From positions 1 through 29,969 of the IMG/VR virus record IMGVR_UViG_3300009124_000070: a stretch of DNA of 29,969 nucleotides. One strand, 5' to 3'. The stretch's first letter is position 1; each line of letters starts with the position of its first letter. Origin of the DNA: a virus. Below, piece by piece: positions 73-17,323 of the stretch. The translations under genes and the position numbers were made by a program. The notes below the pieces were generated by a model. The model was not told the DNA's origin. It was given only the letters and a program-made list of their open reading frames with translations, and did not search any database.

Positions 73-831
73 ATGCCATTACCAGCAGCACTTATGATTG
101 GCGGGGGCATTCTCTCAGGAATTGGGATGATTGGCCAAGCACGAGCTGGGCGTAGGGCCGCTCGCAGAATGGATCGCCTTGCATCTGGCGTACAGGGGCA
201 GTACGACGCTGCTCTTGCTCCTATTGGTGGTTTACTTGCTGAACTTGAAGGTCAAAATCTTGGACAGATGGGCCTTGAGCAAGCACGTATGGCTGGCTAT
301 GGATTTGATCGCGGGACAGCTGAAGCGTCTGCGGCTATGCGCGGTGGTGGGCGTAATGCTTTTGCAGCACTTATGGGTACTGAGCAGCTTCGCCAGCAAG
401 CGGCACTTGGTCAGGCGGCTCTTGGTGCTACCGCTAACCTTCGCCAACAGAATCTTTCTGCTCGCATGGGGCTTTCTGAGGCAATGGCTCAGGGACAGAT
501 GAGAGCCGCTGATACAGCTAATCAGATTCGCCTTGGCGGTATTCAGACAAGACAACAAAGCGCGCAGCAAGCATACGGACAGCTTGCTCAGGTAGGTGGC
601 TTTGCCCTTGCCGCTGGTATTCAAGGCGCTATGGCTCCATCAAATGTTACGAGTAGCGTTCAAGCAATGCCACCAACCTCTACGCGACTCCAAGCTCCCA
701 TTGAAATGCGAGGAACGCCAACTTTAAATCCAGCTCCTTTGGCAAACATACCATCTTTTGGCTCATCTGCTGCTGAAGCCCTAGGTGTTGATTACGGAAC
801 TCTTGCAAGTAGATTTCGCTTTGGTGGATAA
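73..831 (+). CDS. Putative virion cargo/ejection protein (Ala/Gly/Gln-rich)
   Basis: The product is 252 aa and I do not recognise its family. Residues 5-22 form a hydrophobic, glycine-rich segment (IGGGILSGIGMIGQA) that could insert into a membrane. Residues 25-190 are helical, rich in Ala, Gln, Met and Arg, with recurring RQQ/GQ units and almost no Trp or Cys. The C-terminal 60 residues are Pro/Ser-rich and probably disordered. It sits two bases before the next cargo-like gene and upstream of a giant protein, the position of small ejection (internal core) proteins in podoviruses such as T7 gp14 or the cargo genes of crAss-like phages. That analogy rests on position and composition only. The ATG at 73 is the first in frame and has no obvious Shine-Dalgarno sequence. 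Confidence 0.7.
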   Translation: MPLPAALMIGGGILSGIGMIGQARAGRRAARRMDRLASGVQGQYDAALAPIGGLLAELEGQNLGQMGLEQARMAGYGFDRGTAEASAAMRGGGRNAFAALMGTEQLRQQAALGQAALGATANLRQQNLSARMGLSEAMAQGQMRAADTANQIRLGGIQTRQQSAQQAYGQLAQVGGFALAAGIQGAMAPSNVTSSVQAMPPTSTRLQAPIEMRGTPTLNPAPLANIPSFGSSAAEALGVDYGTLASRFRFGG

Positions 832-833
832 AC

Positions 834-1772
834 ATGGCTCTAATTGATGCACTTATGGCTGGCCAGCAGTTTGTGTCTGGCATCCAGCAACAACAACAGA
901 TGGCTCGCGAATACCGCGACAGAATGGCTATGCTTGCTCGCCAAGAAGAGCGTGCTATGCGTGGGGAAGAGCGCCAAATGATGGCTGACTTCCGCGCCCA
1001 AGAAATGCAAGACTTTGAAATGGGCTTGGCCAGAAGTGCTGAAGAAAGAGCCGTCAGCGCAGAAAAAAGAGCAGTTATTGATTCTAATCTCGGGCGGGAA
1101 GAAGCCAAGCAGAGGATGAGAGCAAACGATCTTGAGATAAGACGCCTTCAAGGTGAGCTTGATCGCCTCCCAACTATTCAGGCTCAGCAAGATGCTCTTT
1201 TTGAAATACAAAGAATTACCGCAGAGAATGAGCAGCTTGCATCAAAGTTAAATATTAAAGTAGCACAAGGTGAACTTGCGGCTCAAGAATCAGCAACTGC
1301 TACTAAACAAGAACTTGGAAGAGCGCAGAGCGCTCTAGTGGATGTTGCAAGACAAGTGCAAATTAATCCCGCAGCTCTTACTGCTGAGCAAGCGCTTGCT
1401 GCTGAGCAAACTATGTTTGATTTTCTTGAAAAAAATCCTGGACAAGAACAAGCATTTAGCCCTTATTATAATGCATTTTTCAATGCTCTCGAAGAAGCTG
1501 AAAAAGCAAAAGGAAGCTTGCTTACAGAAAGAGGTGTTCGCCAAAAGTATCGGAGGGAAAACATTGAATCTCTCCCGCCACAACTACCGCTAGTTTTAAG
1601 AGCAATTCTTCCAAAAACACCAGGGCAAATCGAATATGCTACTGGTCTAGAAAGCGAATTAACCACATTAGAAGAGTATCAAAATTTTCGCGACAGACGG
1701 CAAAACTTTATTAATATTGTGGGTCAGCCTTTTGCTAACGCCCTTGTAAGCATGTTGCCGCAAGAAGACTAA
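834..1772 (+). CDS. Putative virion cargo/ejection protein, coiled-coil rich
   Basis: The product is 312 aa. Residues 15-165 are an almost unbroken run of charged, heptad-like helix (many Glu, Arg, Gln, Met and Ala), including an EER/AEKR-rich stretch near 45-90 and a QxELDRL segment near 105-115. The last 80 residues are more globular and Pro-containing. No enzymatic motif is visible. The ATG lies two bases after the upstream stop, with a GGTGG-type ribosome site inside the end of that gene, so the two are probably translationally coupled. The next gene, the giant virion protein, starts 11 bp downstream. Position and composition suggest an internal virion or ejection-conduit component (inference). 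Confidence 0.7.
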   Translation: MALIDALMAGQQFVSGIQQQQQMAREYRDRMAMLARQEERAMRGEERQMMADFRAQEMQDFEMGLARSAEERAVSAEKRAVIDSNLGREEAKQRMRANDLEIRRLQGELDRLPTIQAQQDALFEIQRITAENEQLASKLNIKVAQGELAAQESATATKQELGRAQSALVDVARQVQINPAALTAEQALAAEQTMFDFLEKNPGQEQAFSPYYNAFFNALEEAEKAKGSLLTERGVRQKYRRENIESLPPQLPLVLRAILPKTPGQIEYATGLESELTTLEEYQNFRDRRQNFINIVGQPFANALVSMLPQED

Positions 1773-1783
1773 CTAGGTAGCCA

Positions 1784-4700
1784 ATGAATGAAGAGCAGTA
1801 TCAGTACGTATATAACGCGTACAGGGCTAACCCCTATGCGTTTACCAATGAGCAGGTAGACCAGATAGCCAATGCTGCTAAGCGTCTAAATGTTGACTTT
1901 GGACGCGATCCTATGCACGAAGAAGCTACTATTGGTAGCGTTCTTGGCAACGTGCTTAGTGGTGTTGTTCAGGGGTTTACCACTATTGAAATTGGGGACC
2001 GCCCCGTTACGACTGCTGATCAGATAGCTAACAACCTTGGCTATCTTCTTGGTTTTGTTGGGTTTGTGCCTGGCGTTGGTACCGCAAGCCGCTTTCTTAC
2101 GAGTACTGCTATTCGTGGCGTTCTTTCAGCGAAGCAAGCTGGGGTTATTACTGGCGAAATAGGAAGGAAGGCCGCTGCTCAAACAATTTCTACTCTTCGC
2201 AAGACTCCTGTTAATCGCGTAACGAGTGTTCCTTTTTGGGTTGCTAACAAGATTACAGATGGCGTTGCCTCTAGCACCGCTGCCAAAAGCGCCACTGATT
2301 TCTTTATCAAGAAAGGACTTCAGAAGCAGACCGTATCCAAGATTGGCGATATAGCCAAGGAGGGCTTTAGGCTTGGTACCGCAAGCGCTGTATCTAGCTG
2401 GCAGTATGGCGTTGACCAAATGGCTGCAAGCTTTGTGCAGGGCGGTGTTTCAGGTGCTGGCTTTAGGGGCATTGCAAACTTTGTAAATCTTGGAAGCGAA
2501 GCTGCCAACAAGTTTGCCCGTATTGCTGCTGACACTATTTATTCTGGAGGCAGATCTACTCTTGCTGGCGATCCTCTGCCTGTGCAGGTATATGAGTATG
2601 CTCTTGGCGCTTTGTTTGGCAGCATGGAGCGCCCGCTAAAAGACTATCAAGCTGCCGAGTTCTTGAGCAAGAATGTCAACAAGTACACAAACCGCAATGA
2701 TCGCAGACGTGCTATTGACGACCTTCAAGACTTAGACGAATACAAGAATCTGCCTAAAGAAGTTAAGGAAGTTGTAGATCGCGACATAGATATTACATAC
2801 GGAAGCGAAGCCAAGATTCTTGAAAACATTCTTGGGGAAGATTTTGAGGGTACAGTCCGCATACCAGAAGCGCTCATCAACAGGGCTGTTCAAGAGGCAG
2901 CTGCGGAGATGGGTGTTCGCCCAGAAGATCTTCTTAGATACACGGTCCCTTCGCAAGCATACGTAAAAACTTTCCAAGAGCGTCTTGAAGAAGGCAAGAC
3001 TGAGGAACAGGCAAAGACTGAGGCTCGTGCTGCATACAAAGAGGCGAGCAAAGAAGCAGAAAGCATTATCACGCCACTTCTGTACCAAGGCGACCCTGTT
3101 GTTGCAAACAGTTTTATACCGCGTCTTAAAGCAGAAGAAGAGGCTTACAAGCCATCCATAGGAGCGTTTGAGCAAGCGTTGGCGATGCTGTCTAGACGTT
3201 CTGATACACCTTCTGAGTTCTTCCAGCGTGCTTCTATTGAAGCATCTAAGTTTATCAACAGTCCCACAGATGACATTGACCCAGTAACGGCTGAAGTTAT
3301 TGGGACAAGACAGGTAATTGGAGATAGGCCAGAGGACGTTGAGCTATTTAGATCTAGGCTGAATGACCTTGATCCCACGGCCAACTTTACTGAAGCAGAT
3401 GATCTTCTTATTAGGAAGACGATAAACACATATCTCAAAGCAAAAGAAAGGTTTGCTGGCTACATTGCTTCTGATGGTTCTATTCAAATTGGAAAGCTTA
3501 CTGATCGCGGCCAAGACATTAGAGAGGTTGGAGATCAGACTTTCCTTGATGCTGTTGGGCTTCCATCTATTATTGTTAAAAGGATTCGCGGAAACAGACT
3601 TGCCGTTTCTGAAGCAAGGACGATAAGGCAAAGCACTCTTGATGGTCTTGTTGACACTGTGAAAGCCTTGAGCAAATCTCCTAGTCCGTTTAGAAGATTT
3701 GTTTTCTCTCCAGTAAAGGGAAAGGGTCAGACAACTATTGTCCCGTCTTTGCTTGAAAATTTAAACACAAGAGAAGGAATCGAAGCATCCTTAAAAGAGC
3801 TTGACGATACGCTTTCTAGACTTGATAAAATATCGCCTGGTGTTAGAGGGGCATATAATATTGAAAGGGGCCTATTTTCCGCAGAATACAACAACGCTGC
3901 TATATTTAGGGGCAAAATAGGCGGGCTTAGCGCAAAAGAATACTATGACCTTAATGCCCTAAACAACATTAGGGTCATAGAGGAAATGAATAGCTCTATT
4001 GACCCAGATACGGGCAACAAGATCTATGTTCCATTCGAGGAAATGGTGCGTAACCCAGACAAGTTTATCTCATCTTCTGATGAGCTTGTTAAAAGGATGC
4101 AGGGTTTTGCAGACTCTAACTTTTCTTTGAATACGCCTTACTTTGAGAGCGTTAGAGCAAACGAATCTTCCCCCACCGTTGTTGAAAATGGTGGCTTTAA
4201 CTATGCCATTATAAATGACATACGCTCTGATGGCGAATCGTCATTTGGATTACTTTCTTCTCTTGGCGAAAAAGCTGGCAAGATAACTAGGCTTGATAAC
4301 ACAGACGGCGCTTTGCTTATGCGATCCGATGTGTTTGACGCTATTGCTCGTTCTTCTGGCCTTGAGGATAACATTGGGTCTATCAAGCTAACCGTTACTT
4401 ATGGTAACGAGATGCGTGATGGCAGAGCCTTGGGCGCCACCTTCCACAAGGTATCAGCTATTCGCCTTAGCGAAAAAGAATCCGTTGGTCTTGCAGAGAA
4501 CGACATATCCTTCCTCACATTTGCAAGCGGTGTTAAGCAAACTGGCTTTAGAGAGACGGTTGACTACAAAGTTAAAGTTGTAAAAGACACCCCAGTTGTT
4601 GAGCTATCAAACACCAACGCTATTTACAAAGCTCCTATTGAGTCTATACGAGTTAACATTGGCGCAAGCGAACATCTTAACCAAGTAAACTCTAGAGACG

Positions 4701-7700
4701 TTAGGCTTGTATCTCAGTTTGCTGATGACATCGCAGACCCAGTTGCAAGAGCTGCTGTTAGGAATATTTACGAGCGCGGTTTTGATGGCGATGAGGCGCA
4801 GACTCAGCGTTTTGATGATGAGTCATTTGAAGATCTCGACATTGACAATGTAAGCGCGATTTCTCTTGCAGAGGCTTATTACAACAACTCTTCTACTGTT
4901 TCTCCAGAGAAGAGGGCCTTCTTCCTTAAAGAGGTTCTTAGAAAAAATCTGCCAGATCCAGATAACGACTATTCTATTAAGGCAGATAGGCCCAACGCAA
5001 GGGCTCAGAAGGTTCTCAACGATCTGATTGATACAGAATACCTAGGCCGAGGATTTGAGGATCTCGATGCTAGTGTCAAGGACTTTATAGATGACCGCGT
5101 TCGCAACTATTTTTATACTAGAGTTTCAAAGCCAAAGGTTGAGGTTGGCGGGCAGTCTATCTTTACTTCTATTGATGGGCTTACGCAGCGACATCTTGCT
5201 GGCATGGGCAAGAGCGACGCATATAAAAATATGCCAAAAGAACTTACCGATGCTTTAGAGAAGGGCTACCTTCCAGAGGGATGGGTTGTGTTCAACCAAG
5301 GTATGCGCCGCCAAAAAATCAAATGGCTTGACGGCAAAAAGAAATCCCTTGGCAAAGCATTTGATGAGTATCTAGTTGAGAAAGACAAGGCAAAGCGTAA
5401 GCAGATGGAGGATTTGCTTACGTTCTTGTTTATCCGTGTGCCTAACGACTCTGCCGCTGGCGTACTTCCGCTTCGCATTGCTGGCTTTGGTCAGCGCAAG
5501 GGTAGCGGTATGATAGTCCACGGCGAAGAGCTAAAGCGCATGGGCGGTGCTGATATTGATATTGATAAGGCTTTCTGGTACCAAGACGTTGATGGCAACG
5601 GAGCTGGCACTGGCCCTATCATGGACTACTTTAGGTCTACGAAAGGAACCGTTGCTGCTGAACCCTATCCAAAACCAGCTGGCAGGAGCCCAGAGCAAAA
5701 AATTGCATCCCTGTTTTCTCCTACTGAGCTACACTCGGCTGGCGCAATATCAAGTGGCAGCAAAGGGAGAATTGGTGTTTACGCAAACATATCTAAGCGC
5801 GTAAGGAACTACCTATACGACCTTGCTAATAATGATCGGGAAGAACTTGCAAGGTTTAATAGGTGGATTACTACTGGGATTAATTCATCTGCTGACGGAA
5901 TTAACAGAGAAACAGCTCAGGATATATCTCGAGAGCTAAATAATCAAATAAGAAGGATTGTTCCAGAAGAAAAGTATGAGGATGCAATAGAGTATCAGAG
6001 AAACTCAAAACTAATTGAAGGTGTATTTGAAAGGAAGGTTGGAGAAATTGGCGCTAATGTTAGAAATGAATCTGAATTAATTAGATTTGCCGACGTTGAT
6101 ACCTATAATCATCCACGCCACGCTGGAGTCATTAGGCTTGCGGAGGTAATTAGAAAAGGCCCAAGCGCAGACACTATTACTGATCCTGCGTCTGTTATAC
6201 CTACTGTCTCAAGCAGTAGTGTAAATAGGATCATCGAGCGTTATGAAAACATATTCCGCTCAGATGACGATCAGTCTAAGATTACGCGATTCCTTGTAGA
6301 GGGTTTTGGAGTGCCTAGTTCTGGCTCTGGCGATACTTACCGCAACACAATTACTGGTCTTGGCAGCATGGTTGCCCTTGATAGGCGAGGTCGTGCCGCA
6401 ATCAGCCAGATGGAAGAAAAGGGGTACACCAGAGACGGTGCGCTTGTAGCAATAGAAGAAATACAGTCCTTCTTTAAAGGTGATAACGGTTATATAGAAA
6501 GACTCTCTCGGGCAAGGAGGGGATCTGGCGAGAGGATTGAAGACATCTTCAAGGATATGACTGAGCGCGCCTTCTACATTGAAGATGCTTATGGATCGTC
6601 TGCTCGTCTTTACTTTGAGATGATTGCTCGTGGCGGCAGAAGAATGTCAGACACTACAACAGAGGGGGCTCTGAACCTTCTGCGCTCTATACCTATATCA
6701 ACGGTAAACAAAAGGATTGAAGAACTTGCTGCTTCTAAAGTAAAGGATGGAAAAAATGCTGAAGCCGCACGAGAAGAGGCCATATCTGACCTTGTTGCAG
6801 AAGCAAGAAAGAGAGCCAATTCCTTTGCCAAACAAACCACAACCATTATTGATTGGGAAGGCATAAGCAAACAGACTAACATAGACTTTGCTGAAGCCGT
6901 CACCTACGTTGCTAGGGGTGAAGATGCCTTTCAAGAGCGTGTTGCAGAGCCACGATTTAGCGAGACTGGGCGTGTTGAGATAACCAAAGACCCAGAAACT
7001 GACCTTCCAGAAGATCCAGTATCTCCACGCGAAGTGGAAGAGGTTGAGTCATTCACTAGCCGCATTACTGGCAAGGAGCAAGGGGTTGAGTTCACGCCAG
7101 AAGAGCGAGCCAAGATTAATCGTATCAAGGAGATCTTCCACGAGCATCCCGATCTCATTCGTGAGATGATGATTGGCGGCGGAGGTCGCGTTATACGCGA
7201 CAGCCAAGGCGTTCCTATTCCGCCAGAGCTTTGGACACCTAGAGAAATAGACCAGTTTATAGACTACTTCGATAAGTCTAGAGGCGGGTTTTTATGGAAT
7301 CTGTTTAGCAAGGGCAAAGGAGATTTGCCAGCCTTGGCATACATGCAGTTTCCAGATAGGGTAATTGAACAAATTAAGCCGTTTGACGGCAAGCTAGAGG
7401 CCGCTGTCAACAAAAAGGTTATTACCCCAGATGGGATCAAGGTTTTACCTGTACGAGAGTTCTTTACTTCTTTTGACAGGATGAGGGTTGTGTTTGGCTA
7501 CGCGCACGACCGTAATGCAAGAGTTGTTGCAGAGCAACAAGAAAAGTTTTCAAAGTACCTCAGTTTCTTGGAGCAAGAGTCTTTCAGGGAAGACGGCGAA
7601 AAAATATTTATCATCTCCACTGCTCTTCGCGAGATTGGTCTTATTAGAAAGATTAATGAGGATGGCTCTCTTGGTGCTTTCAAAAAAGGCTACAACAAAA

Positions 7701-10216
7701 CCGTTGCTTGGAAGCGATACAAGAACATAGAGAAGCTGTACAAAGAGCTGTCTGAAAAAACATATACAGCAGCTGTTCCTAAAATTGGCAGTGATGGTAG
7801 GTTTATCAGAGACAATTCTGGCAAGCTTGAGACTACGGTTAGAAAGGTCAAGGGCAAAGAACTATTTGGAACGATTGACAACCCAAACGCTGGCATAGTC
7901 AACAAGGGTATCACAGATGTTCTTAGGGGCATCTATGACAAACTCATTGTTAACAAAGAGGGTGCTAAAAAACATCTTATTTACAAAAACAAGGAAAAAG
8001 GAATAATTGACCTTGATGCAACGATAAATCATTTGTTTGATATGTCACGCCGCAATAACAACTTCATTGTTGGCATTGATGGCCTAAACAGAATCCTCCA
8101 TGCTCAGCAGATTGAGAAGCTTGCCATTGAAGTTGCTGGCAGAAACGGAAGATCCTTTAAGATTGGCGATGCTCGTTTCCAAAAGATTGTAGAGAATCTA
8201 TACGAGCGCAATCCGTTCGAATACGAGGCAGCCGATGTTCTTGACGCTGGCATGACCGCTCTTCAGCAAGGTGCTAAAAATCTTGACAAGGGCATAAACG
8301 TTGGGCAAGTGGGCGAGATCAACATGTTTGCCTACTTTCCGCACAATGGCATACCTAGTTCTATTGCAAAAGAGTATGTCCAGAAGCTTGAGGATCAGCT
8401 TAACAACGCCACTAGCGATAGCGAGCGCAATAGGCTTAAGATTAGGATCAGCCAGATGTACGCAACTATGGCTGCTCCAGAGAACGCATTTAGCCAAAGC
8501 CTAAAGGACATTGCATTTACAACGCCAAGAGCTTCTGATGGTACTATGGTTATTGTAAAGCCAAAGCCCACGCAGTCGCGCGGCAGAGAGCCAATGCCTG
8601 GGTATGATCCTTCTGATGCGGCTATAAATAACTACATCACTACCATAACGAAGGGTTATTACGACTCTTTATCTACTGTTGTAGCAAACTACGAGATGAA
8701 TAGGTTTGAGGCCCGTAAGAGCGCTGGTGAATATACTGGCAAATGGGCAGAGTGGGGCCGCACCTATTTACGTACGGTGCTTGGTCATGATACCATGTAC
8801 AGTGATGAGTATCTGAAACGCAACCCAACGCTTGCCAAAAGTGCGGCATACTATACGTCTGATCGCTATGCGTTTGACAAGTATTATGAGACTATTGTAA
8901 AACGATTCAATATAGATCAGTACAATAGGGTTCAAAAAATTAAGGCTGATGCTGCAAGAAATGGCGAGGATTGGACGCGCCATCCAGAGATCCAGCGTGC
9001 TGCATCCAAGATCCGCAGGTTCTCCAGCATGGAGGGCAAGTGGAACATGATGAGTCTTCTTGCCAACACTAGGTCTGTTACCAACAACGTTGTTGGTGGC
9101 AATACCATGACTATTGTATCTACTGGACTTAGGCCTTGGTTAAACACATTTAGACCATCCTATTGGAAGAGCATCAACCCAGAATGGCGCTCTAAAGAAG
9201 ACCTATATAAGTTTGCAGCAGAAAGAGGTGCTGTTGAAGCGTTTATTATACAAGAAGTAAATCTCAACCCAACCAAGTTTGAGGCTCGCAATGTTAAAAA
9301 CTTTATTGCAGAAAGCATTTCTTCTATTACTTCTGCATACAAAGGCGGCAAAAGCCTTGATGACTCTGATCTTATTGCAATAGCCAAACGAAATGAGCTT
9401 AGCGAGGACTTTATTCAGTCTGCCGCATACTTTATGCGTGCCCCAGAACGAGATCTTCGCATGAGATCGTTTATGGCCCACTACTTTAAGGCGAGAGAGG
9501 TTCTTGGGTCTAACAAGAACCTTGACAAGTTTGATGACCCAGAGATCATTGAGATGGCATTGCGTGGGGTTAAAGGTACGCAGTTTCTCTACAACTCAGC
9601 AGAACGTCCCATCTTTAGCTCAAGCAGCATAGGCAAGATTTTCTCTCGTTTCCAGCTTTGGTCTTGGAACTCTATTCGTTTTAGACGCGATGTTTACAAG
9701 GCAGCCCGTGAGTCTGGCTATCAAGAGGGGACGGTAGAGTTTGACAAGTACAAGCGTGTTGTACAAGCTGACCTATTTATGCTTGGCCTTGCATCTGCGT
9801 TGCCGTACACGATGTTTGAATCCATTGTACCAGCACCGTTTAACTACATACAAGATCTTTCTGACTACTTCTTTGGAAGTGAAACTGAGCAAGAAAAAGC
9901 ATTCTTCGGAACATTGCCATACCCATTAAATGTTACAGGCATAGTTCTTCCTCCGTCTACTCGTATATTTACGGCGTTAACTGCACTTGCTGGTGGAGAC
10001 GTTGATAGATTTGTTGACTATCATATTTATACTCTTGCTCCTTTTGGGCTTATGGGTAGAAATATTGCCCGCACAGCAGCTAACCCGTCTATGACCGTAG
10101 ACTTTATGACTGGCGTACCGCTTCACAGAATGTCTCGCTACATGAGAGAGCTAAGAGAAGAAGCGCCTAGAACAAATCCTTCTCCAATAGGAGAGATTCC
10201 AATAGAAGAACAATAA
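1784..10216 (+). CDS. Giant virion protein with DxDxD motif, candidate virion RNA polymerase/ejection protein
   Basis: The product is 2810 aa, more than a quarter of the window. Seen directly: residues 45-125 and 195-275 are Gly/Ala-rich with hydrophobic, zipper-like stretches (for example LGYLLGFVGFVPGVG). Residues 1218-1262 run from an R-x-P (FIRVPNDS) through a Gly-Phe and Gly-rich turn to GGADIDIDK, with Asp at 1257, 1259 and 1261. Residues near 2424-2440 hold a LANTRSVTNN segment of a type I associate with very large phage proteins. The C-terminal 150 residues are hydrophobic. Known family: two-barrel RNA polymerases use a DxDxD/DxDGD loop, and crAss-like phage virion RNA polymerases carry DFDID preceded by a similar R-x-P...GF...GSD block. 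Inference: this is a virion-packaged, ejected RNA polymerase fused to ejection-type domains. I found no P-loop or lysozyme signature. The start ATG has an AGG-type site (AGGTAGCCAATG). It overlaps the next gene as TAATG. Confidence 0.75.
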   Translation: MNEEQYQYVYNAYRANPYAFTNEQVDQIANAAKRLNVDFGRDPMHEEATIGSVLGNVLSGVVQGFTTIEIGDRPVTTADQIANNLGYLLGFVGFVPGVGTASRFLTSTAIRGVLSAKQAGVITGEIGRKAAAQTISTLRKTPVNRVTSVPFWVANKITDGVASSTAAKSATDFFIKKGLQKQTVSKIGDIAKEGFRLGTASAVSSWQYGVDQMAASFVQGGVSGAGFRGIANFVNLGSEAANKFARIAADTIYSGGRSTLAGDPLPVQVYEYALGALFGSMERPLKDYQAAEFLSKNVNKYTNRNDRRRAIDDLQDLDEYKNLPKEVKEVVDRDIDITYGSEAKILENILGEDFEGTVRIPEALINRAVQEAAAEMGVRPEDLLRYTVPSQAYVKTFQERLEEGKTEEQAKTEARAAYKEASKEAESIITPLLYQGDPVVANSFIPRLKAEEEAYKPSIGAFEQALAMLSRRSDTPSEFFQRASIEASKFINSPTDDIDPVTAEVIGTRQVIGDRPEDVELFRSRLNDLDPTANFTEADDLLIRKTINTYLKAKERFAGYIASDGSIQIGKLTDRGQDIREVGDQTFLDAVGLPSIIVKRIRGNRLAVSEARTIRQSTLDGLVDTVKALSKSPSPFRRFVFSPVKGKGQTTIVPSLLENLNTREGIEASLKELDDTLSRLDKISPGVRGAYNIERGLFSAEYNNAAIFRGKIGGLSAKEYYDLNALNNIRVIEEMNSSIDPDTGNKIYVPFEEMVRNPDKFISSSDELVKRMQGFADSNFSLNTPYFESVRANESSPTVVENGGFNYAIINDIRSDGESSFGLLSSLGEKAGKITRLDNTDGALLMRSDVFDAIARSSGLEDNIGSIKLTVTYGNEMRDGRALGATFHKVSAIRLSEKESVGLAENDISFLTFASGVKQTGFRETVDYKVKVVKDTPVVELSNTNAIYKAPIESIRVNIGASEHLNQVNSRDVRLVSQFADDIADPVARAAVRNIYERGFDGDEAQTQRFDDESFEDLDIDNVSAISLAEAYYNNSSTVSPEKRAFFLKEVLRKNLPDPDNDYSIKADRPNARAQKVLNDLIDTEYLGRGFEDLDASVKDFIDDRVRNYFYTRVSKPKVEVGGQSIFTSIDGLTQRHLAGMGKSDAYKNMPKELTDALEKGYLPEGWVVFNQGMRRQKIKWLDGKKKSLGKAFDEYLVEKDKAKRKQMEDLLTFLFIRVPNDSAAGVLPLRIAGFGQRKGSGMIVHGEELKRMGGADIDIDKAFWYQDVDGNGAGTGPIMDYFRSTKGTVAAEPYPKPAGRSPEQKIASLFSPTELHSAGAISSGSKGRIGVYANISKRVRNYLYDLANNDREELARFNRWITTGINSSADGINRETAQDISRELNNQIRRIVPEEKYEDAIEYQRNSKLIEGVFERKVGEIGANVRNESELIRFADVDTYNHPRHAGVIRLAEVIRKGPSADTITDPASVIPTVSSSSVNRIIERYENIFRSDDDQSKITRFLVEGFGVPSSGSGDTYRNTITGLGSMVALDRRGRAAISQMEEKGYTRDGALVAIEEIQSFFKGDNGYIERLSRARRGSGERIEDIFKDMTERAFYIEDAYGSSARLYFEMIARGGRRMSDTTTEGALNLLRSIPISTVNKRIEELAASKVKDGKNAEAAREEAISDLVAEARKRANSFAKQTTTIIDWEGISKQTNIDFAEAVTYVARGEDAFQERVAEPRFSETGRVEITKDPETDLPEDPVSPREVEEVESFTSRITGKEQGVEFTPEERAKINRIKEIFHEHPDLIREMMIGGGGRVIRDSQGVPIPPELWTPREIDQFIDYFDKSRGGFLWNLFSKGKGDLPALAYMQFPDRVIEQIKPFDGKLEAAVNKKVITPDGIKVLPVREFFTSFDRMRVVFGYAHDRNARVVAEQQEKFSKYLSFLEQESFREDGEKIFIISTALREIGLIRKINEDGSLGAFKKGYNKTVAWKRYKNIEKLYKELSEKTYTAAVPKIGSDGRFIRDNSGKLETTVRKVKGKELFGTIDNPNAGIVNKGITDVLRGIYDKLIVNKEGAKKHLIYKNKEKGIIDLDATINHLFDMSRRNNNFIVGIDGLNRILHAQQIEKLAIEVAGRNGRSFKIGDARFQKIVENLYERNPFEYEAADVLDAGMTALQQGAKNLDKGINVGQVGEINMFAYFPHNGIPSSIAKEYVQKLEDQLNNATSDSERNRLKIRISQMYATMAAPENAFSQSLKDIAFTTPRASDGTMVIVKPKPTQSRGREPMPGYDPSDAAINNYITTITKGYYDSLSTVVANYEMNRFEARKSAGEYTGKWAEWGRTYLRTVLGHDTMYSDEYLKRNPTLAKSAAYYTSDRYAFDKYYETIVKRFNIDQYNRVQKIKADAARNGEDWTRHPEIQRAASKIRRFSSMEGKWNMMSLLANTRSVTNNVVGGNTMTIVSTGLRPWLNTFRPSYWKSINPEWRSKEDLYKFAAERGAVEAFIIQEVNLNPTKFEARNVKNFIAESISSITSAYKGGKSLDDSDLIAIAKRNELSEDFIQSAAYFMRAPERDLRMRSFMAHYFKAREVLGSNKNLDKFDDPEIIEMALRGVKGTQFLYNSAERPIFSSSSIGKIFSRFQLWSWNSIRFRRDVYKAARESGYQEGTVEFDKYKRVVQADLFMLGLASALPYTMFESIVPAPFNYIQDLSDYFFGSETEQEKAFFGTLPYPLNVTGIVLPPSTRIFTALTALAGGDVDRFVDYHIYTLAPFGLMGRNIARTAANPSMTVDFMTGVPLHRMSRYMRELREEAPRTNPSPIGEIPIEEQ

Positions 10217-11115
10217 TGAGCGATAGTTACGAAGAGCGCATAGTCACTGTCGCCACTAAAGAGCGCGATAGCATTAAGTCTGGCGCTATCAACCAGAACG
10301 ATCTTATTCAGAAGTATAACCTTTCTCGCCACATGGCTGGGATTATATTCTATTCTGTTAAGATTGGTAGCTTTGATGGCGAGCAACCAACTGAGCGAGA
10401 GCTTGGCGTTGTTAACAGAAACGTTGCTAATGATCGCATTGCAGACAACGGTGTTGGCAACGTGTTGGTAATTGGGGATACTCATATTCCATTTGTGCAC
10501 CCAGACTACTTAGACTTTTGTCTTTGGGTAAAAGATCAGTACGACTGTGAGTACGTTGTACACATTGGAGATGAGGTAGACAATCATGCTATTTCATACC
10601 ATGAGTCTGACCCAGACGGCCTATCAGCAGGAATGGAGGCAGAGTCTTGCCTTAACGAACTGAAGGCGTGGTACAAGGCGTTCCCTGAAGTAACGGTGCT
10701 TGTTGGTAACCACGGAGCCCTGCCCTTCAGAAAGGCTTTCAGCGCTGGTCTACCGCGTCGCTTCCTTAAAACGTACAGAGATATATGGGAGGCTCCTGAC
10801 GGCTGGGTATGGACGCATGAGGCTCTTATAGACGACGTTTTGTATCAGCATGGTATTGGAACCAGCGGTAAAAATGCCGCCCTTAACAAAGCTATGGCTA
10901 ACAGACAGTCAACTGTGATTGGCCACGTTCATAGTTGGGGCGGTGTTCAGTACACCAGCGGTCCAAAGGACACCATATTTGGCATGAACGTTGGTTGCGG
11001 TATTGACGAAACCTCTTATGCCATGGCGTACAGCAAACCGTTTAGATACAGACCTACCCTTGGCTGCGGTGTGGTTCTTGGCGATGGCTCTCACGCCATG
11101 TTTATTCCAATGTAA
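10216..11115 (+). CDS. Calcineurin-like metallophosphoesterase
   Basis: The product is 299 aa. The metal-binding motifs of the superfamily appear in order: GDTH at 87-90, GDEVDNH at 118-124, GNHG at 164-167, a His in YQHG near 212 and GHVHS at 236-240. It should be a two-metal hydrolase of phosphomonoesters or phosphodiesters. The substrate (nucleotide, nucleic acid or protein phosphate) cannot be inferred. Residues 1-80 precede the fold and look helical, with a segment (NQNDLIQKYNLSRHMAG) that could be a small helix-turn-helix. Its ATG overlaps the stop of the giant virion gene (TAATG), so it is co-translated with the cargo operon and might be a virion or early-infection enzyme. It is the last gene of the rightward block; the leftward operon ends just beyond it. 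Confidence 0.88.
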   Translation: MSDSYEERIVTVATKERDSIKSGAINQNDLIQKYNLSRHMAGIIFYSVKIGSFDGEQPTERELGVVNRNVANDRIADNGVGNVLVIGDTHIPFVHPDYLDFCLWVKDQYDCEYVVHIGDEVDNHAISYHESDPDGLSAGMEAESCLNELKAWYKAFPEVTVLVGNHGALPFRKAFSAGLPRRFLKTYRDIWEAPDGWVWTHEALIDDVLYQHGIGTSGKNAALNKAMANRQSTVIGHVHSWGGVQYTSGPKDTIFGMNVGCGIDETSYAMAYSKPFRYRPTLGCGVVLGDGSHAMFIPM

Positions 11116-12031: not shown

Positions 12032-12922
12032 TTACAATTCCACCCATGTGTCGTATGTAGCTCGCTCTTCAAAGTCGTATCTCTGCTTTGACAGAAACAT
12101 TTCTTTGAGGGTGGCGCTAATTTCTTCCTGACGCTTGGTGATTGTATCTCTGTTGATGCGAAACATTCCTACTTCGTGGTATCCTTTTGACTCAACAGCC
12201 ATGATGCCAGCAGATTCATTGGCACCAGCAAGAGCAGAATAGTGAGCAAGCTGGTACTCATAGCCATACTTGTCTATCGTTTCTTGCATCTGATACAGCG
12301 GGAATGAGGTTGTCTTAAGGTCAACAATCATGATAGCTGACGTTGAGCTGCCACCAGCAACAACGCCCATGTCAATCATTCCCTTTACCTTAAGTCCAGT
12401 AGGAGCATGTGTAGCGGTATACACTAGCTGCTTTTCTGATTCCTCTAAGCACGCTCTTGCAACGTTGTGCTTTCGAACATTAGCTGCCATAGTCATAATG
12501 CGATAGAAAGATTCTCTGCTAATGACAATCTTTTCATCAACGCGTCTTAGAAAATCGGCATACGGCATAAGATCTTTTGCCTTTTTCATGTCAACGCGTT
12601 TGTAGCCAGCTTCTTCAAAGGCTAGCGCAATGTTGGACGCGTTCTTTGAGAGCGCTGCTGCCAGTTTCATCTGCAAGTCTGTTGACGGCATCTTGAGATT
12701 GTCTGGTGCAATCTCTATGCGGTCATCAAACAGATCTGGTTCAAGCAAGTACGTGTCAAACGCTGAGCCAAATGCAAATGCTGGACTGTCAATGTTTTCT
12801 TTGTACTTGTACTTGCGTGGGTGTTGTTTGAACAACTTCATGTCGCTGTTGGATATTCCCTCCATCTGAAAGTATTCCTCTTGCGATACATTGTGTCGTT
12901 CAATGTCTGTGTATTCGAGCAT
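12032..12922 (-). CDS. RecE/DUF3799-like PD-(D/E)XK exonuclease
   Basis: The product is 296 aa. Residues 17-60 (YFQMEGISNSDMKLFKQHP followed by AFAFGSAFDTYLLEP) are the typical N-terminal block of the phage RecE-like/PDDEXK_1 exonucleases. The active site is visible as GMIDMGVV (D184), IVDLKTT (D201, K203) and YEYQLAHY (Q224). Likely role: processive 5'-3' digestion of dsDNA ends to expose single strands for the annealing protein. In this phage the partners would be the Sak4-like ATPase and the SSB-like protein encoded upstream in the same direction. The length suits the C-terminal nuclease domain of RecE. AGGAAAACCCAATG gives the ribosome site. Confidence 0.85.
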   Translation of the reverse strand: MLEYTDIERHNVSQEEYFQMEGISNSDMKLFKQHPRKYKYKENIDSPAFAFGSAFDTYLLEPDLFDDRIEIAPDNLKMPSTDLQMKLAAALSKNASNIALAFEEAGYKRVDMKKAKDLMPYADFLRRVDEKIVISRESFYRIMTMAANVRKHNVARACLEESEKQLVYTATHAPTGLKVKGMIDMGVVAGGSSTSAIMIVDLKTTSFPLYQMQETIDKYGYEYQLAHYSALAGANESAGIMAVESKGYHEVGMFRINRDTITKRQEEISATLKEMFLSKQRYDFEERATYDTWVEL

Positions 12923-13016
12923 TGGGTTTTCCTAATTGGTAATTGGGAATTGGGAATGATTCCCAATTGGGGCGGGCGGGGTTTGGCCGTGTGGATTGGC
13001 CACCCCGCCGCCCTTT
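12923..13016. other. Palindrome and GC-rich hairpin between exonuclease and primase-helicase genes
   Basis: This 94-bp gap holds an AATTGG-type tandem repeat (12934-12955), a perfect inverted repeat AATTGGGAA-TGA-TTCCCAATT (12948-12968) and a very GC-rich hairpin (12970-13013). The hairpin has 11 G:C pairs with one bulge and an inner GGCC/GGCC arm. TTTTT (13014-13018) follows the hairpin on the plus strand, so it is a canonical intrinsic terminator for rightward (antisense) transcription. Read leftward there is no U tract. An origin or RNA-processing role is also possible. Confidence 0.6.
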
Positions 13017-14846
13017 TTAGAATGTAGCAGATCTGGAACGAGAAGACTCAGATACAACCTGCATGCGCGGGAAGTCAAACTTGACCTGCAACTCAAAAGG
13101 CTCTCCATCCCTGTTCTTGATGGTCTTGATGCGCCTTGTGTAACTGGTTCGTTCTCCCTCAATAGCAATAACGTGGTCCATCTTTGTGACGTTGCTTCTG
13201 TTGCCAGTTGCATCGTTTAACGATATAGACCTTGCTGTTTCTGAAAAGTCTTCTCCATTGATAGCCCTTGATCCACTCTTGTTGATATGGTGAATGGCAA
13301 AGATTGTTGTATTGCTTGCCTGTGCAATCTTGCGCAACCCTTCAATGATAACTCTGAGATGCCACATTTCGTTGTTACCCGCTTCTGGTACGCTGATCCC
13401 ATCTGTGGTGTCAATAACAACAAACTCTGGTTTGTACTGCATACATGCGCGCTCAACAGCATCAAGTGTTGGAGCATCTGATACCATCTTAAGCCAGTCA
13501 AGTTTTGATACAAGCTCGTTTACCTGACCGTCTCTAATAGCATCCTCTACCTCTTGCTTGGTCATGCCGTTAGAACACTGTATAAAACGCCTTGTAACCA
13601 GTGCTTCTGGCATTTCCAGATTTAGGTATAGCGTTTTCTTTTTCATCTTAACAAGCATGTCTTGCACAAAAAGACTCTTGCCAATACCAGTATCAGCCAT
13701 GACAAGCGTTAGGCTTGAGGGCAATATTCTGTATTCTTTGTTGGACTGCTGTCCGTAAAGGCTATACAAATTAAATCCTTTGCCCTCGTCTATCAAGCTT
13801 ATGTAATTAGCAAGATTCTTTGCAAGCTCATCGTGTGATTGAACATACATAGAGTAATCCTTTTTCTTGTTGAAGATGCAAGACGAGCTGCAATACTCTT
13901 GCATTACTTGGTCTTTGCATCCGTAAGTGTACCCTTTATCGTAAGTGTTTTTGACTATGCGCAGAAGTTCTTCATCTGGTAGCCACCCATCTAAAGTCTT
14001 GACTGCATACTCGTAGGGCAATCCGCTGCGCCAAAGCCAGCTAGACAGTCTGAGTATGTCTTGGTGTCTGCGCCCCCTCTTGGGCCCTTGCGCTATGAGC
14101 GTCTGCATACACGTTACAAGGCGCGTTGGGTCATGAGATGATACCGTAGTACTCTCTGAGTTTCTGCGCGCTATACGTGGCGTTGCAACGATCCTGCGAA
14201 GGACTGGCTCTGGGTCTTCTTCTGGCCACTCAATAAAGGATAGCCTCTTGAGCATACTTGGCATGACACCAAGCGCTGGCGCTTGCTGGGAAAACAAATC
14301 TTTGAGCGGTATCAAAGTTTTGAATGTCCCGTTTTTGTGCTTGCTGAACGGTGCTCTGATTAGACCAGCAGTGTTGACTGGCGATAGGTCAATCAGCGGG
14401 TGGTTCATGTTTTCGTAGATGGTTGCCTTCATTATTTCTGGCAACGCACTTGATGGCGGGATGCCAAAAAGTCTTCCATCTAGCTCTACATGAAACCCCT
14501 TGTATCCACTAAACCACACTTTGATGTAGTCTTCTGGCACGTCCAAATAGGACATGATGTACCTAACATAATTTCTTACCTCCACTAGTGTTTGTGATAT
14601 ATCAACAGCAGCTCCGTCAAAGTCTAAGACAATAGTTTTCATGTAAGCATTTCCATTGAAACGCTTTGACATGTAACTGTTTTGGTTCAAGAACTCTTTT
14701 AGCTCATCGTAATCAAACGCAAACATACTGTTATGCGCCTGATTCTTTTCGCACTGTTTGAGCCACGCTTCTGATAATAGATCTGATTCAGTTAGCAGCA
14801 ACCCTCTGTTGCTGTACGATGTGTGAGATCCTTCGAAGCCTAGCAT
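13017..14846 (-). CDS. Primase-helicase fusion (AEP primase domain + DnaB/RecA-like helicase)
   Basis: The product is 609 aa. Residues 1-200 look like an archaeo-eukaryotic primase/prim-pol: motif I VLDFDG (D75, D77), motif II SGYKGFHVE (113-121, H119), motif III-like LIDLS (D153) and GLIRAPFSKHKNG (161-173). Residues 250-330 form a PriCT-like helical linker with a Cys cluster (C310, C319, C323). Residues 375-590 are a RecA-fold helicase: Walker A MADTGIGKS (383-391), EMP near 411-413, Walker B FVVIDTTD (475-482) and a His pair in IFAIHHINKSG (519-520). It should lay down primers and unwind DNA at the phage fork. There is no DNA polymerase gene in the window. Start ATG overlaps the upstream stop (TAATG). 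Confidence 0.88.
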   Translation of the reverse strand: MLGFEGSHTSYSNRGLLLTESDLLSEAWLKQCEKNQAHNSMFAFDYDELKEFLNQNSYMSKRFNGNAYMKTIVLDFDGAAVDISQTLVEVRNYVRYIMSYLDVPEDYIKVWFSGYKGFHVELDGRLFGIPPSSALPEIMKATIYENMNHPLIDLSPVNTAGLIRAPFSKHKNGTFKTLIPLKDLFSQQAPALGVMPSMLKRLSFIEWPEEDPEPVLRRIVATPRIARRNSESTTVSSHDPTRLVTCMQTLIAQGPKRGRRHQDILRLSSWLWRSGLPYEYAVKTLDGWLPDEELLRIVKNTYDKGYTYGCKDQVMQEYCSSSCIFNKKKDYSMYVQSHDELAKNLANYISLIDEGKGFNLYSLYGQQSNKEYRILPSSLTLVMADTGIGKSLFVQDMLVKMKKKTLYLNLEMPEALVTRRFIQCSNGMTKQEVEDAIRDGQVNELVSKLDWLKMVSDAPTLDAVERACMQYKPEFVVIDTTDGISVPEAGNNEMWHLRVIIEGLRKIAQASNTTIFAIHHINKSGSRAINGEDFSETARSISLNDATGNRSNVTKMDHVIAIEGERTSYTRRIKTIKNRDGEPFELQVKFDFPRMQVVSESSRSRSATF

Positions 14847-15148
14847 TATTTCTTGAATAAGGTTTTCATTTGAGTTGCCCTCCGCTTGCGACCAGCATAG
14901 GTTTCCCCGCGAAGGTCTTCTCTTTCTTCTTGAACCTTTCTGCGAGCCCTTGAGATTGACTCAAAGCGCGGCATCGTGCGGTTGTGCATCGCCATTAAAA
15001 GTTCTTGTGCTGATAAGTCAGCAGGATCACCATAGTAATTAGCAATGTAATGCCATACAACTCTTTCATCGCTGTCTCTGGCATTTATGTGTTCCTCAAG
15101 TATTGATGCTATGCGGTGCATCAGCTTATTTTTGAACTTCTTTTTCAT
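14846..15148 (-). CDS. Hypothetical basic protein coupled to primase-helicase
   Basis: The product is 100 aa, strongly basic, helical, and of no family I can name. Residues 25-60 (WHYIANYYGDP...LSAQELLMAMHN) look like a small helical domain. Residues 62-95 form a basic arm (SISRARRKVQEEREDLRG then YAGRKRRATQ) of the sort that contacts DNA. The SIxRxRRKxQ pattern followed by LRG-x-Y recurs, as I recall, in phage proteins beside replication genes. Its stop overlaps the primase-helicase start (TAATG), and GGAGGCACACAATG gives a strong ribosome site. It may be a helicase loader or DNA-binding accessory factor (inference). Confidence 0.75.
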   Translation of the reverse strand: MKKKFKNKLMHRIASILEEHINARDSDERVVWHYIANYYGDPADLSAQELLMAMHNRTMPRFESISRARRKVQEEREDLRGETYAGRKRRATQMKTLFKK

Positions 15149-15170
15149 TGTGTGCCTCCACTTATTTTGA

Positions 15171-15392
15171 TTAAGAGTTAATCCACTCTGCGCATATTTG
15201 GCAGTACCCGTATTTATCTGTTTCTTGATCCTCGCCCATTTCTTCTCCGCACTCTATGCAGACGTAATCTTCTACACAGTTATCGCATAGCCCGTTCTCA
15301 AGGGTAGCATAGCTGTATGCAGCACACTCGCATATGCGGCACTTTGCTGCTGGGTCTGGCGGTGATAGTTGTTGGTCTTTTACGTAATCCAT
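15171..15392 (-). CDS. Small zinc-knuckle protein with four CxxC pairs
   Basis: The product is 73 aa with four CxxC pairs: C18/C21, C36/C39, C45/C48 and C64/C67, plus an extra Cys at 23. It is acidic (GEEMGEDQETD) and can probably bind two zinc ions in a double zinc ribbon. Such proteins often mediate protein contacts in replication or transcription complexes, but no specific function can be assigned. GAGGTAAAAAATG gives a good ribosome site. It is the first gene downstream of the structured non-coding stretch at 15393-15680, whose final hairpin lies just ahead of it. Confidence 0.75.
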   Translation of the reverse strand: MDYVKDQQLSPPDPAAKCRICECAAYSYATLENGLCDNCVEDYVCIECGEEMGEDQETDKYGYCQICAEWINS

Positions 15393-15417
15393 TTTTTACC
15401 TCACTTGTATAAATAGC

Positions 15418-15444
15418 AAAGGCCAGCTCCCACAGCTGACCTTT
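15418..15444 (-). terminator. Terminator-like or attenuator hairpin
   Basis: GGCCAGCT and AGCTGACC arms (15421-15428 and 15434-15441, one G:T pair) enclose a 5-base loop, with AAA and TTT on the flanks. Read leftward the tail is TTTGCTATTT, a weak U tract. The hairpin ends about 28 bases before the zinc-knuckle start codon, so partial termination, attenuation or RNA 3'-end protection are all possible. Confidence 0.45.
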
Positions 15445-15543
15445 ACTAAACCTTATCGCCCACACCCCACAAAGCGGAAAGGGCTTACATTATGCCTTTC
15501 TCACTATATGAAATGGCTTCCACCTGTACTTCAGGCTTCAGCA

Positions 15544-15606
15544 GGAGACAGCAACGGAATCGAACCGCTGCCCTACGGGATAGGGGGTGCACCAGCACAC
15601 TGTCTC
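15544..15606 (-). ncRNA. tRNA-like cloverleaf (Gly-CCC-like, shortened D arm)
   Basis: Read leftward, 63 bases fold into a four-arm cloverleaf. The closing stem is 8 bp (GAGACAGT with GCTGTCTC). A tiny D-like arm is GTGC-TGGT-GCAC. The anticodon-like arm is CCCTATCCCGTAGGG. The T arm is AGCGG-TTCGATT-CCGTT with a canonical T loop. If the second arm is opened to a 7-base loop, it reads AT-CCC-GT, meaning U33, a Gly-type CCC anticodon and G37. There is no variable loop, the D loop is too small, and the closing stem is one pair too long for a normal tRNA. It may be a degenerate tRNA or a tRNA mimic. No CCA is encoded. Confidence 0.45.
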
Positions 15607-15680
15607 TGCTCATTTGCGCGGCTTAGGTAGAGCGACACCGTTATCAAGGGTTGGAGGTAGACCCCGCCGCTATTTCAGAG

Positions 15681-16385
15681 CTAAAAGGGTACTTGCTCTG
15701 ATTCGCTAGAAGACACGCTAAGCGAGGCAGGTTCAGACGGGGCGCTGTCACCACCCGCACTTAGCAAGTCGGGATTGTAGCGCTTTACCCACCCTCCACT
15801 AACTTGTTTCATGAAGCTCTTGTAAAGAGCATCACCTGCTTTCTGAGCATCCTCATCGCTGTCACCTACTGAGTAGAATATGTCGTAAACGTCATACCCT
15901 GTTTTGCCGTTGTTCTTTTGATATGCGGCATACTCAAGGTAGACAACCTCCTGTCCTACCATTTCCTTGACGGCAGCATCAAAGAGATTGCGCCATGCTG
16001 ACTCATTGAAGTTCTTCTCATCAAGATCAGATGCTTCAATATCAGCAGACTGCAACACCTTTGCCGTGTCTGTACCAGTTGCCTTGATAAGTTGCTTGAC
16101 CTTGAACAAGCTGCCAAGACCAGAAGCTACTTCACCGTGTGCAGTAGCAATCTTTTTGAACCAGCCCAGAATGTCCGTAGACTTTGCAAAGCCAGCTCCT
16201 GTATCAAGTTCAAGACCTATCATAACGTCAACCACTGTCCCCTTGGAGCCAATGCTTGCGTTTTCTGAGTAGGTAGCCTTCTCAATGCGGCCACGTTTAA
16301 CGTATACAGCGCCATCTTCGTGTGAACCAAGACGGTTGCTGTTGTTTGTTGTACTGCCCTTTGCAGGGCTTTCAAAGAATCCCAT
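15681..16385 (-). CDS. Probable phage single-stranded DNA-binding protein
   Basis: The product is 234 aa. Residues 25-180 mix beta-like and helical stretches compatible with an OB-fold ssDNA binder. The C terminus is a Ser/Glu-rich disordered tail ending in SESEQVPF, closely resembling the acidic -x-P-F tip by which bacterial SSBs dock their partners. It lies 7 bp downstream of the Sak4-like ATPase gene. Sak4-type annealing ATPases are known to work with a cognate phage SSB (for example in HK620), which supports the assignment. Overall identity to SSB families cannot be judged by eye. AAGAAGATAATG gives the ribosome site. Confidence 0.65.
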   Translation of the reverse strand: MGFFESPAKGSTTNNSNRLGSHEDGAVYVKRGRIEKATYSENASIGSKGTVVDVMIGLELDTGAGFAKSTDILGWFKKIATAHGEVASGLGSLFKVKQLIKATGTDTAKVLQSADIEASDLDEKNFNESAWRNLFDAAVKEMVGQEVVYLEYAAYQKNNGKTGYDVYDIFYSVGDSDEDAQKAGDALYKSFMKQVSGGWVKRYNPDLLSAGGDSAPSEPASLSVSSSESEQVPF

Positions 16386-16392
16386 TATCTTC

Positions 16393-17157
16393 TTAGTTTA
16401 CTTTTGAGAGTGTTTTAAGTGCAGTTGTTTTACCTGCTCCAGAGTCACCAATGATTAAGATCTTTGGGTTTGGTATATCATTCTCACGGTAGTGAGCGAT
16501 AAGTGGCCCAAAGTCTTGGTCAATGATTCCAGTCTCTGATGGGTAAGGCAATCTGCTTTTTGCCTGTGTTCTCCTATTGTCTGATACAATCTGCCACGAA
16601 TACGATGCTTCGCCTTTGCGATTGCGGCTAACAATAGAATACGCTACTATATCAAAGTAGCGAGCGGCAGACGTTTTGGCTGATCCCTTAAGGTCAGGAA
16701 CTTCTAACGGTCCACCGTTTTCGTCTTGCCCACGATCAACGTGAGCGGTAACAACTACTGGGGCTTCAAGCTTGCACAGTTTTTGTACAAAGCGAATCAT
16801 CTTCTCGCCATACTTACCCCATAGTTGTAGGTCCATATTGACTGCGCGATGTTCACGCATAATCTGCTCGCGAGTTTGGTTGCCCGCCACAGATAAGGAA
16901 TCAATAACGATACCAGAAAGGCCAATGTTTGAAGCAGTTTCAGAAATTTGGTAGCGGATTTCAGCGCCGCCTGTATCTGCAAATAGTTCATGCTTGATCT
17001 CCACTTTGTTTTCTGTTGTGATTTTGTCAAGCAACGCGCTTATCTGGTCTACCCCATGCGTTACTGATACGGGCTCAAACCCAAGGTCGTCCTTGATTTT
17101 TGAGCGGCCTCCTATTGACGCGGTACTCCTGTCTGCATCAAAGATTAAACAGTTCAT
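16393..17157 (-). CDS. Circularly permuted Sak4/RecA-like P-loop ATPase
   Basis: The product is 254 aa. It begins at MNCLIFDADRS (residues 1-11), which in Sak4/AAA_24-type RecA relatives is the second strand that normally follows the P-loop. Then come Walker B GIVIDSLSV (82-90, D86), a WGKYGEK helix (113-119) and the fourth strand VVVTAHVDRG (134-143). Walker A appears only at the very end, KILIIGDSGAGKTTALKTL (232-250), four residues before the stop. Joining the end (LSKVN) to the start (NCLIF) recreates the usual order exactly. The start ATG has a clear GAGGAAAACTATG site, and no Walker A is encoded upstream. Likely role: ATP-dependent strand annealing or pairing with the adjacent SSB-like protein and the RecE-like exonuclease. 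Confidence 0.82.
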   Translation of the reverse strand: MNCLIFDADRSTASIGGRSKIKDDLGFEPVSVTHGVDQISALLDKITTENKVEIKHELFADTGGAEIRYQISETASNIGLSGIVIDSLSVAGNQTREQIMREHRAVNMDLQLWGKYGEKMIRFVQKLCKLEAPVVVTAHVDRGQDENGGPLEVPDLKGSAKTSAARYFDIVAYSIVSRNRKGEASYSWQIVSDNRRTQAKSRLPYPSETGIIDQDFGPLIAHYRENDIPNPKILIIGDSGAGKTTALKTLSKVN

Positions 17158-17323
17158 AGTTTTCCTCTCTGTCTTCTATTTGTCTTTTAAGTGTAACCCT
17201 TTCGTATGCTTCTCGCTCAATGGCTCGGGATACTGTTTTCCATAGGCTGAAAGAAGCCCCCCTTGCGTTATACAAAGGGAGCTTCTTGTTGATCAGCCAG
17301 AGCTTATACAAAGCCCGTATCAT
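17138..17323 (-). CDS. Small hypothetical protein between DUF932 and ATPase genes
   Basis: The product is 61 aa, basic and helical, and of no family I recognise. The N-terminal part is hydrophobic/aromatic (ALYKLWLINKKLPLY) and the second half is charged (REAYERVTLKRQIEDREENY). Its ATG overlaps the DUF932 stop by four bases (ATGA) and its end overlaps the ATPase start by 20 bp. This is the arrangement of a genuine translationally coupled gene. Function unknown. Confidence 0.6.
   Translation of the reverse strand: MIRALYKLWLINKKLPLYNARGASFSLWKTVSRAIEREAYERVTLKRQIEDREENYELFNL

Follow-up and report, generated by a model that had tools for sequence, protein, structure and literature searches.

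The window, that is, the whole stretch of DNA that was analysed, is a 29,969-base IMG/VR record. Its genes and gene parts that concern this study are the following.

73 to 831, plus strand: short gene of 252 aa, a putative ejection partner by its position; several relatives have genes of similar size before the giant gene.
834 to 1772, plus strand: short gene of 312 aa, a putative ejection partner by its position; genes of 295-562 aa lie at the same place in relatives.
1784 to 10216, plus strand: giant protein of 2810 aa (P0001), with an N-terminal region, a central core assigned to a two-barrel RNA polymerase, variable linkers and a conserved C-terminal domain.
8501 to 10213, plus strand: conserved C-terminal domain of the giant protein, residues 2240-2810, with 29% identity to a distant relative (E 7e-79).
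25745 to 27250, plus strand: terminase large subunit, TerL (phrog_38), which led to the distant relative G003.
27235 to 29400, plus strand: P22-type portal protein (PF16510, E 6.6e-58).

An earlier reading, made from the sequence alone (hereafter the sequence-only reading), had set the giant gene beside two cargo-like genes. This held for the position, as the 252-aa and 312-aa genes stand just upstream; their cargo role is inferred. The 252-aa protein showed no confident family match in Pfam or PHROGs, and the 312-aa protein had no detectable sequence similarity to its positional counterparts in the relatives. The giant-gene stop is overlapped by a metallophosphoesterase gene (10216-11115, plus strand; phrog_221), and metallophosphatase genes also lie near the polymerase block of the crAss-like phage phi14:2. 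A 254-aa frame at 24893-25654 (plus strand) without a PHROG match carries the motif HEIAHLYQE, which suggests a zinc metallopeptidase. Replication and recombination genes occupy 12032-18177 on the minus strand, namely an exonuclease VIII-like gene, a DnaB-like helicase fused to a primase-like part, and a Sak4-like annealing protein.

The genome had also been described as non-crAss and podovirus-like. The close relative L002 has a structural gene block upstream of its giant gene and an SU10-type capsid protein. TerL and portal of the window and L002 belong to phrog_38 and phrog_156/P22_portal, and the capsid protein, seen in L002, to SU10_MCP/phrog_1328. The respective proteins of phi14:2 belong to phrog_6681, phrog_6547 and phrog_11589, and no similarity to phi14:2 was detected by BLASTP of TerL. 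The three proteins are in other families than those of phi14:2 and no crAss-type TerL, portal or major capsid protein was recognised; therefore, the phage is not crAss-like, and this part of the claim held. The term podovirus-like rests on inference from the portal only, with the tail uncharacterised. P22_portal was found in nine of the ten relatives' records. There are relatives' contigs of about 44 to 47 kb. The record of locus L292 (G015) has 88,986 bases and matches P22_portal at two places (near 31.8-33.8 kb and near 76.5-78.5 kb), about 44.7 kb apart; probably the assembly joined two copies of a single genome of about 44.7 kb head to tail. Together, the relatives' contigs and the two portals of this record make a genome size near 44 kb likely.

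The stretch of interest in the giant protein is RVPNDSAAGVLPLRIAGFGQRKGSGMIVHGEELKRMGGADIDIDK, residues 1218-1262 (window 5435-5569), with the pattern RVP...GF...GGADIDIDK and Asp at residues 1257, 1259 and 1261. The sequence confirmed what had been read there. Two features were defined in this stretch.

5435 to 5443, plus strand: R1218-V-P1220 motif; R and P do not vary in the 13-member family or in A4.
5552 to 5566, plus strand: catalytic acid triad D1257-x-D1259-x-D1261, as assigned here; invariant in 13 of 13 family members, with spacers varying between I, V and L and between I and G.

A chance origin of the triad was weighed. The giant protein is acidic and contains the bare pattern D.D.D at four places (residues 332, 1017, 1058 and 1257), against a mean of 0.78 in shuffled sequences. 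Therefore, the triad alone is weak evidence, and the case was made to rest on homologues. The longer patterns are rarer: G[AST]D.D.D is present once where 0.0095 are expected, and R.P with the spacing and G(x)D.D.D once where 0.0045 are expected. Direct searches with the giant protein (Pfam, PHROGs, PDB sequences and tblastn against INPHARED) gave no confident match. Two loci from a DNA pattern for G[AS]DIDIDK, L006 and L007, were unrelated chance matches and were rejected.

Homologues were obtained at several distances. Two close relatives are present in IMG/VR, L001 (86%, truncated) and L002 (66%, 2820 aa). Codon differences between the window and L002 show that residues 1204-1283 are under strong constraint: 27 are synonymous and 6 non-synonymous, against 854 and 918 over all of the protein that can be compared. 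The terminase search yielded the distant phage relative G003 (TerL 42%), whose giant frame shares the C-terminal domain at the similarity listed above and reads RVP...GF...GADVDGDK at the triad site. A first scan of genome contigs had found no relative, and direct searches with the distant relative's protein gave nothing useful either. The search with the C-terminal domain reached 11 viral and two genome loci, of which eight viral and two genome contigs were new. Ten of the distant giant frames (2065 to 3283 aa) extend over the region, and all of them have the motif, as DVDGD in nine and as DLDID in L300, a Bacteroidetes contig. The giant proteins of L002 and L291-L300 have 2820-3283 aa. The contigs of L300 (JAHISV010000010.1) and L301 (PMMO01000176.1) come from metagenome-assembled genomes of Bacteroidetes and Ignavibacteriae; they hint at possible hosts, and a binning error could also account for them.

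Across the 13-member family, the triad at 1257 reads DIDID in three members, DVDGD in nine and DLDID in one. DxDGD, here DVDGD, is the cellular form of the triad. The other three D.D.D triads of the giant protein are lost beyond the closest relatives in the same alignment. Invariant in it are the three Asp, R1218, P1220, Q978, G1331, N1335, A1370 and D1371; D841, K868 and K889 are invariant in all 12 members covering these positions. In a 29-sequence alignment of the window family with crAss-type RNA polymerases, K889 and K918 are invariant. Variation of the three Asp among close homologues would have refuted the sequence-only reading; it was not observed, and only the spacers shift towards DxDGD.

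The regions of the core were delimited as follows, using the profile comparison and the structure model given below. DPBB stands for double-psi beta barrel.

4046 to 6103, plus strand: RNA polymerase core, residues ~755-1440, equal to residues ~38-794 of the L297 model, the part aligned with QDE-1 and gp66.
4295 to 4558, plus strand: DPBB-B segment, residues 838-925 (NTDGALLMRSDVF...SIKLTVTYG...ATFHKVSA...FASGVKQTG), with D841, K868 and K889 conserved; hhalign without the acid motif, E 2.2e-5.
5108 to 5593, plus strand: DPBB-A region, residues ~1109-1270; match to the crAss DPBB-A HMM at 1205-1267, E 1.1e-6; strands of the model lie here.
5720 to 5833, plus strand: candidate bridge helix, residues 1313-1350 (...GSKGRIGVYANISKRVRNYLYD...), equal to a 38-residue helix of the model (603-640), with G1331 and N1335 invariant.
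5879 to 5905, plus strand: motif INSSADGIN, residues 1366-1374, with A1370 and D1371 invariant; it resembles crAss INAxVDxAKDP, by eye only.
5909 to 6091, plus strand: hypervariable stretch, residues 1376-1436; between the window and L002, 4 codons are identical, 10 synonymous and 41 non-synonymous (41/55).

The candidate bridge helix has GK..MG..VNAKT at the expected place; its match to crAss GK..IG..AN is weak, just above that of shuffled sequences. No trigger loop was identified in the core, and the downstream sequence match to crAss RNA polymerases is weak. The hypervariable stretch is probably a linker behind the core.

The relationship with crAss-type polymerases was determined by profile comparison. 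A three-sequence profile aligned with phi14:2 gp66 picked exactly the triad stretch, with 54 gapless columns, 31% identity and the three Asp in register. Residues 780-1480 were then compared by hhalign with 13 crAss-type polymerases, namely gp66 and its tblastn-collected relatives. The probability was 92, the E value 6.7e-7 and the score 62.7; none of 60 column shuffles scored above 24.6, and other parts of the giant protein reached about 20. The alignment to crAss-type polymerases spans residues 833-1267 and is co-linear over TD(G/A), the Lys-containing strands, EH...SQ, GGQS and RVPN...DIDIDK. With a DNA pattern, about 70 crAss-type polymerases of diverse sequence were collected, many of them aquatic in origin, and with 47 from this aquatic set, residues 780-1560 reached probability 96, E 2.6e-9 and score 81.9 (shuffle maximum 22.0). 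At least about 99 non-redundant crAss-type polymerases are present in IMG/VR (loci L027-L106 and L147-L226), many on contigs of 15-50 kb, and their diversity looks much larger than that of the cultured set.

Motif-ascertainment bias is possible in the aquatic set; therefore, the tblastn-collected set and a DPBB-B test without the motif were used as well. After DPBB-A had been cut from both sides, hhalign still gave E 2.2e-5 and a score of 44.5 (shuffle maximum 23.0), and four other regions of the giant protein did not exceed 20.1 in the barrel-specific tests. This DPBB-B result depends on the broader aquatic set, as the tblastn-collected set alone stayed below significance (E 0.024 and 0.11). 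The HMM of crAss DPBB-A was made from tblastn-collected sequences, hence without motif selection, and found the giant protein at E 1.1e-6 among 3219 sequences, where the best shuffled sequence had 0.15. A profile of the upstream strands of DPBB-A with the acid motif removed did not recognise it. The computational result, obtained without a tree, is that the giant protein is homologous to the gp66-type crAss virion RNA polymerases across both barrels.

For the understanding of the fold, structure prediction was executed. AlphaFold2 on the giant protein with its two close relatives only was uninformative (pLDDT 42). The corresponding 837 residues of the relative L297, modelled from the family alignment only and without crAss rows, gave a pLDDT of 80.2 and a pTM of 0.79. 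The confident model is thus that of L297 and not of the window protein, to which L297 is about 17% identical in the region. In a Foldseek search with this model, the 16 best PDB rows all belonged to QDE-1 and plant RDR2, with E 7e-8 for QDE-1 at the top, and the largest subunits of bacterial RNA polymerases came next; RPB1-type subunits were also among the best PDB matches. The VIA-align 2 Z scores were 14.6 over 480 residues for QDE-1, 12.9 and 12.7 for gp64/gp62 of the P23-45 group (P74-26 gp62, 12.7), 10.5 for P23-45 gp96, and 10.1 over 539 residues with an rmsd of 4.5 for phi14:2 gp66. RDR2 gave Z 13.7. The fold match covers the whole core of the model, and the matches to QDE-1 and gp66 span both barrels. 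Among predicted viral proteins, the best matches were unnamed proteins (E 1.5e-27, 16% identity) and then crAss-like phage proteins. YonO was absent from the fold rows listed, which is no evidence against kinship. A confident fold without a double-psi beta barrel would have spoken against the sequence-only reading; the L297 model instead matches two-barrel polymerases, including both gp66 and QDE-1, which had been named for comparison.

The computational evidence therefore shows homology, the class of fold and the constancy of the catalytic residues, and it is very likely that the giant protein holds the two-barrel RNA polymerase fold, its activity being inferred. The main point of the sequence-only reading, that a non-crAss phage encodes a two-barrel RNA polymerase of the crAss type, is supported by the constancy of the Asp residues, the profile alignment over both barrels and the PDB matches of the family-only model. 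The best overall explanation is, in all likelihood, a single-chain two-barrel DNA-dependent RNA polymerase that forms part of a giant virion protein. The enzyme would be made up of residues ~755-1440, with DPBB-B (838-925; K868 and K889) followed by DPBB-A and the bridge helix (~1313-1350), and the D1257-I-D1259-I-D1261 loop of DPBB-A would bind the catalytic Mg. Packaging and delivery would fall to the parts on either side, mainly to the conserved C-terminal domain. The giant protein would reside in the capsid together with the proteins encoded by the two short genes before it, be ejected with the DNA through the P22-type portal and the tail, and transcribe early genes before or without the host RNA polymerase, as N4 vRNAP and phi14:2 gp66 do.

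These steps differ in their support. Polymerase activity, virion presence, ejection and early transcription are all inferred. That the protein is a virion polymerase is probable, and this is deduced from the gene layout, its size and the parallel with N4. There are no proteomics, no transcription data and no promoter, and layout supplies the only signs of ejection. The packaging or ejection role of the C-terminal domain is likewise an inference, as no function is known for it; it matches neither a Pfam family nor a known ejection family. Accordingly, the earlier claim of fused ejection-type domains and of ejection by the phage stands only as an inference.

Three other readings were weighed. 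The enzyme could be a two-barrel RNA polymerase made during infection and acting in the cell like P23-45 gp64, with the fusion serving another purpose. Non-virion two-barrel phage polymerases do exist (PMC10770324), and this reading gains from the missing proteomics and from a C-terminal domain without a known ejection homologue. It is nevertheless unlikely: the giant gene ends the structural block, standing in the window behind the two short genes with relatives arranged similarly, the size of about 3000 aa and the central polymerase match N4 vRNAP, and the replication genes of the window lie on the opposite strand. Less plausible still is a domain that derives from a polymerase, is no longer catalytic and remains as a DNA-binding or structural part of an ejected protein. 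In its favour, the sequence is far from any characterised polymerase and the window lineage differs from the cellular DxDGD. Against it, the three Asp, D841, K868, K889, R1218 and P1220 are invariant while the spacers change freely, and the crAss gp66, whose activity is reported (PMC7886860), carries a DFDID triad.

The last reading, in which the giant protein is merely a large polyvalent ejected protein as in Thalassomonas phage BA3 and the triad a chance metal or calcium site, is very unlikely. The BA3 layout is the same (234, 284 and 2631 aa), its portal is also of the P22 type, and acidic proteins often contain DxDxD. However, the BA3 protein has no significant similarity to the window protein, including its C-terminal domain, and carries LPD38 and a methyltransferase instead, and the fold and profile evidence favours a polymerase. 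The absence of an LPD38 match in the giant protein, in that of L002 and in the C-terminal domain alignment, and a profile comparison with BA3 near shuffle level, are only weak evidence on this point.

With the virion polymerase retained as the preferred reading, a bolder one can be put forward. A separate, so far unnamed lineage of about 44 kb, with P22-type portals and an SU10-type capsid (in L002), probably ejects a two-barrel RNA polymerase in the middle of an N4-style protein. With the same confidence, the N4 plan, which in N4 uses a T7-type enzyme, appears to have been built independently with an enzyme of the QDE-1/crAss type, in a family having both DIDID and DxDGD sites. It is conceivable that some members infect Bacteroidota or Ignavibacteria.

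The claim that the combination is new held in part. Virion two-barrel RNA polymerases are known from a few phage groups (crAss-like, P23-45-like and phiKZ-like jumbo phages), and their fusion to large virion proteins has been described for gp96 of P23-45 (PMC10770324) and gp66 of crAss-like phages (PMC7886860). What is likely to be novel is a two-barrel virion polymerase, its virion role being inferred, built into an N4-style ejection protein; this is a variant and not a new class. No description of the family was found in the open-access literature searched, and an earlier listing, for example in supplementary alignments, is not excluded. If the reading is true, this type of enzyme is more widespread and became joined to ejection machinery on more than one occasion, here in small phages with P22 portals. 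Such phages would begin transcription without the host RNA polymerase and have their own genes read on entry. A family set with both DxDID and DxDGD is useful to trace the relations between crAss, QDE-1 and cellular polymerases.

Among the known systems, phi14:2 gp66 is likewise a single chain with DPBB-B before DPBB-A and shares TD(A/G), the Lys of DPBB-B, GG(Q)S, R-(I/V)-P-N and D-x-D-I-D-K. The order and spacing of the barrels agree, with 416 residues from TD to DxDxD in the window protein and about 400 in gp66. In contrast, the distance from DxDxD to the bridge-helix motif is shorter in the window protein (78 residues to the bridge Asn against about 190), its polymerase stands in the middle of the protein fused to a different C-terminal domain, and the phage is of another kind. 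At the level of tblastn against INPHARED phages, the window protein showed no similarity. In P23-45 gp96, a two-barrel virion polymerase is likewise joined to a giant virion protein, as inferred for the window protein. However, gp96 is fused to the tape measure protein of a long-tailed phage, whereas the portal of the window phage is of the P22 type and no tape measure protein was recognised in this phage. The eukaryotic RNA-interference polymerases QDE-1 and RDR2 are the best fold matches; unlike the window protein, they act in RNA interference without fusion to virion domains, and the identity is about 12%.

The gene plan resembles that of N4 vRNAP (gp50, Schitoviridae), a protein of about 3500 aa with its polymerase at 998-2103 and in one operon with two ejection proteins (PMC12633501). 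Both systems have a giant protein in the range of about 3000-3500 aa, a central polymerase and two smaller genes alongside. The N4 enzyme, in contrast, is a single-subunit polymerase related to that of T7, whereas the L297 model has its top fold matches among two-barrel polymerases, which have a different fold.
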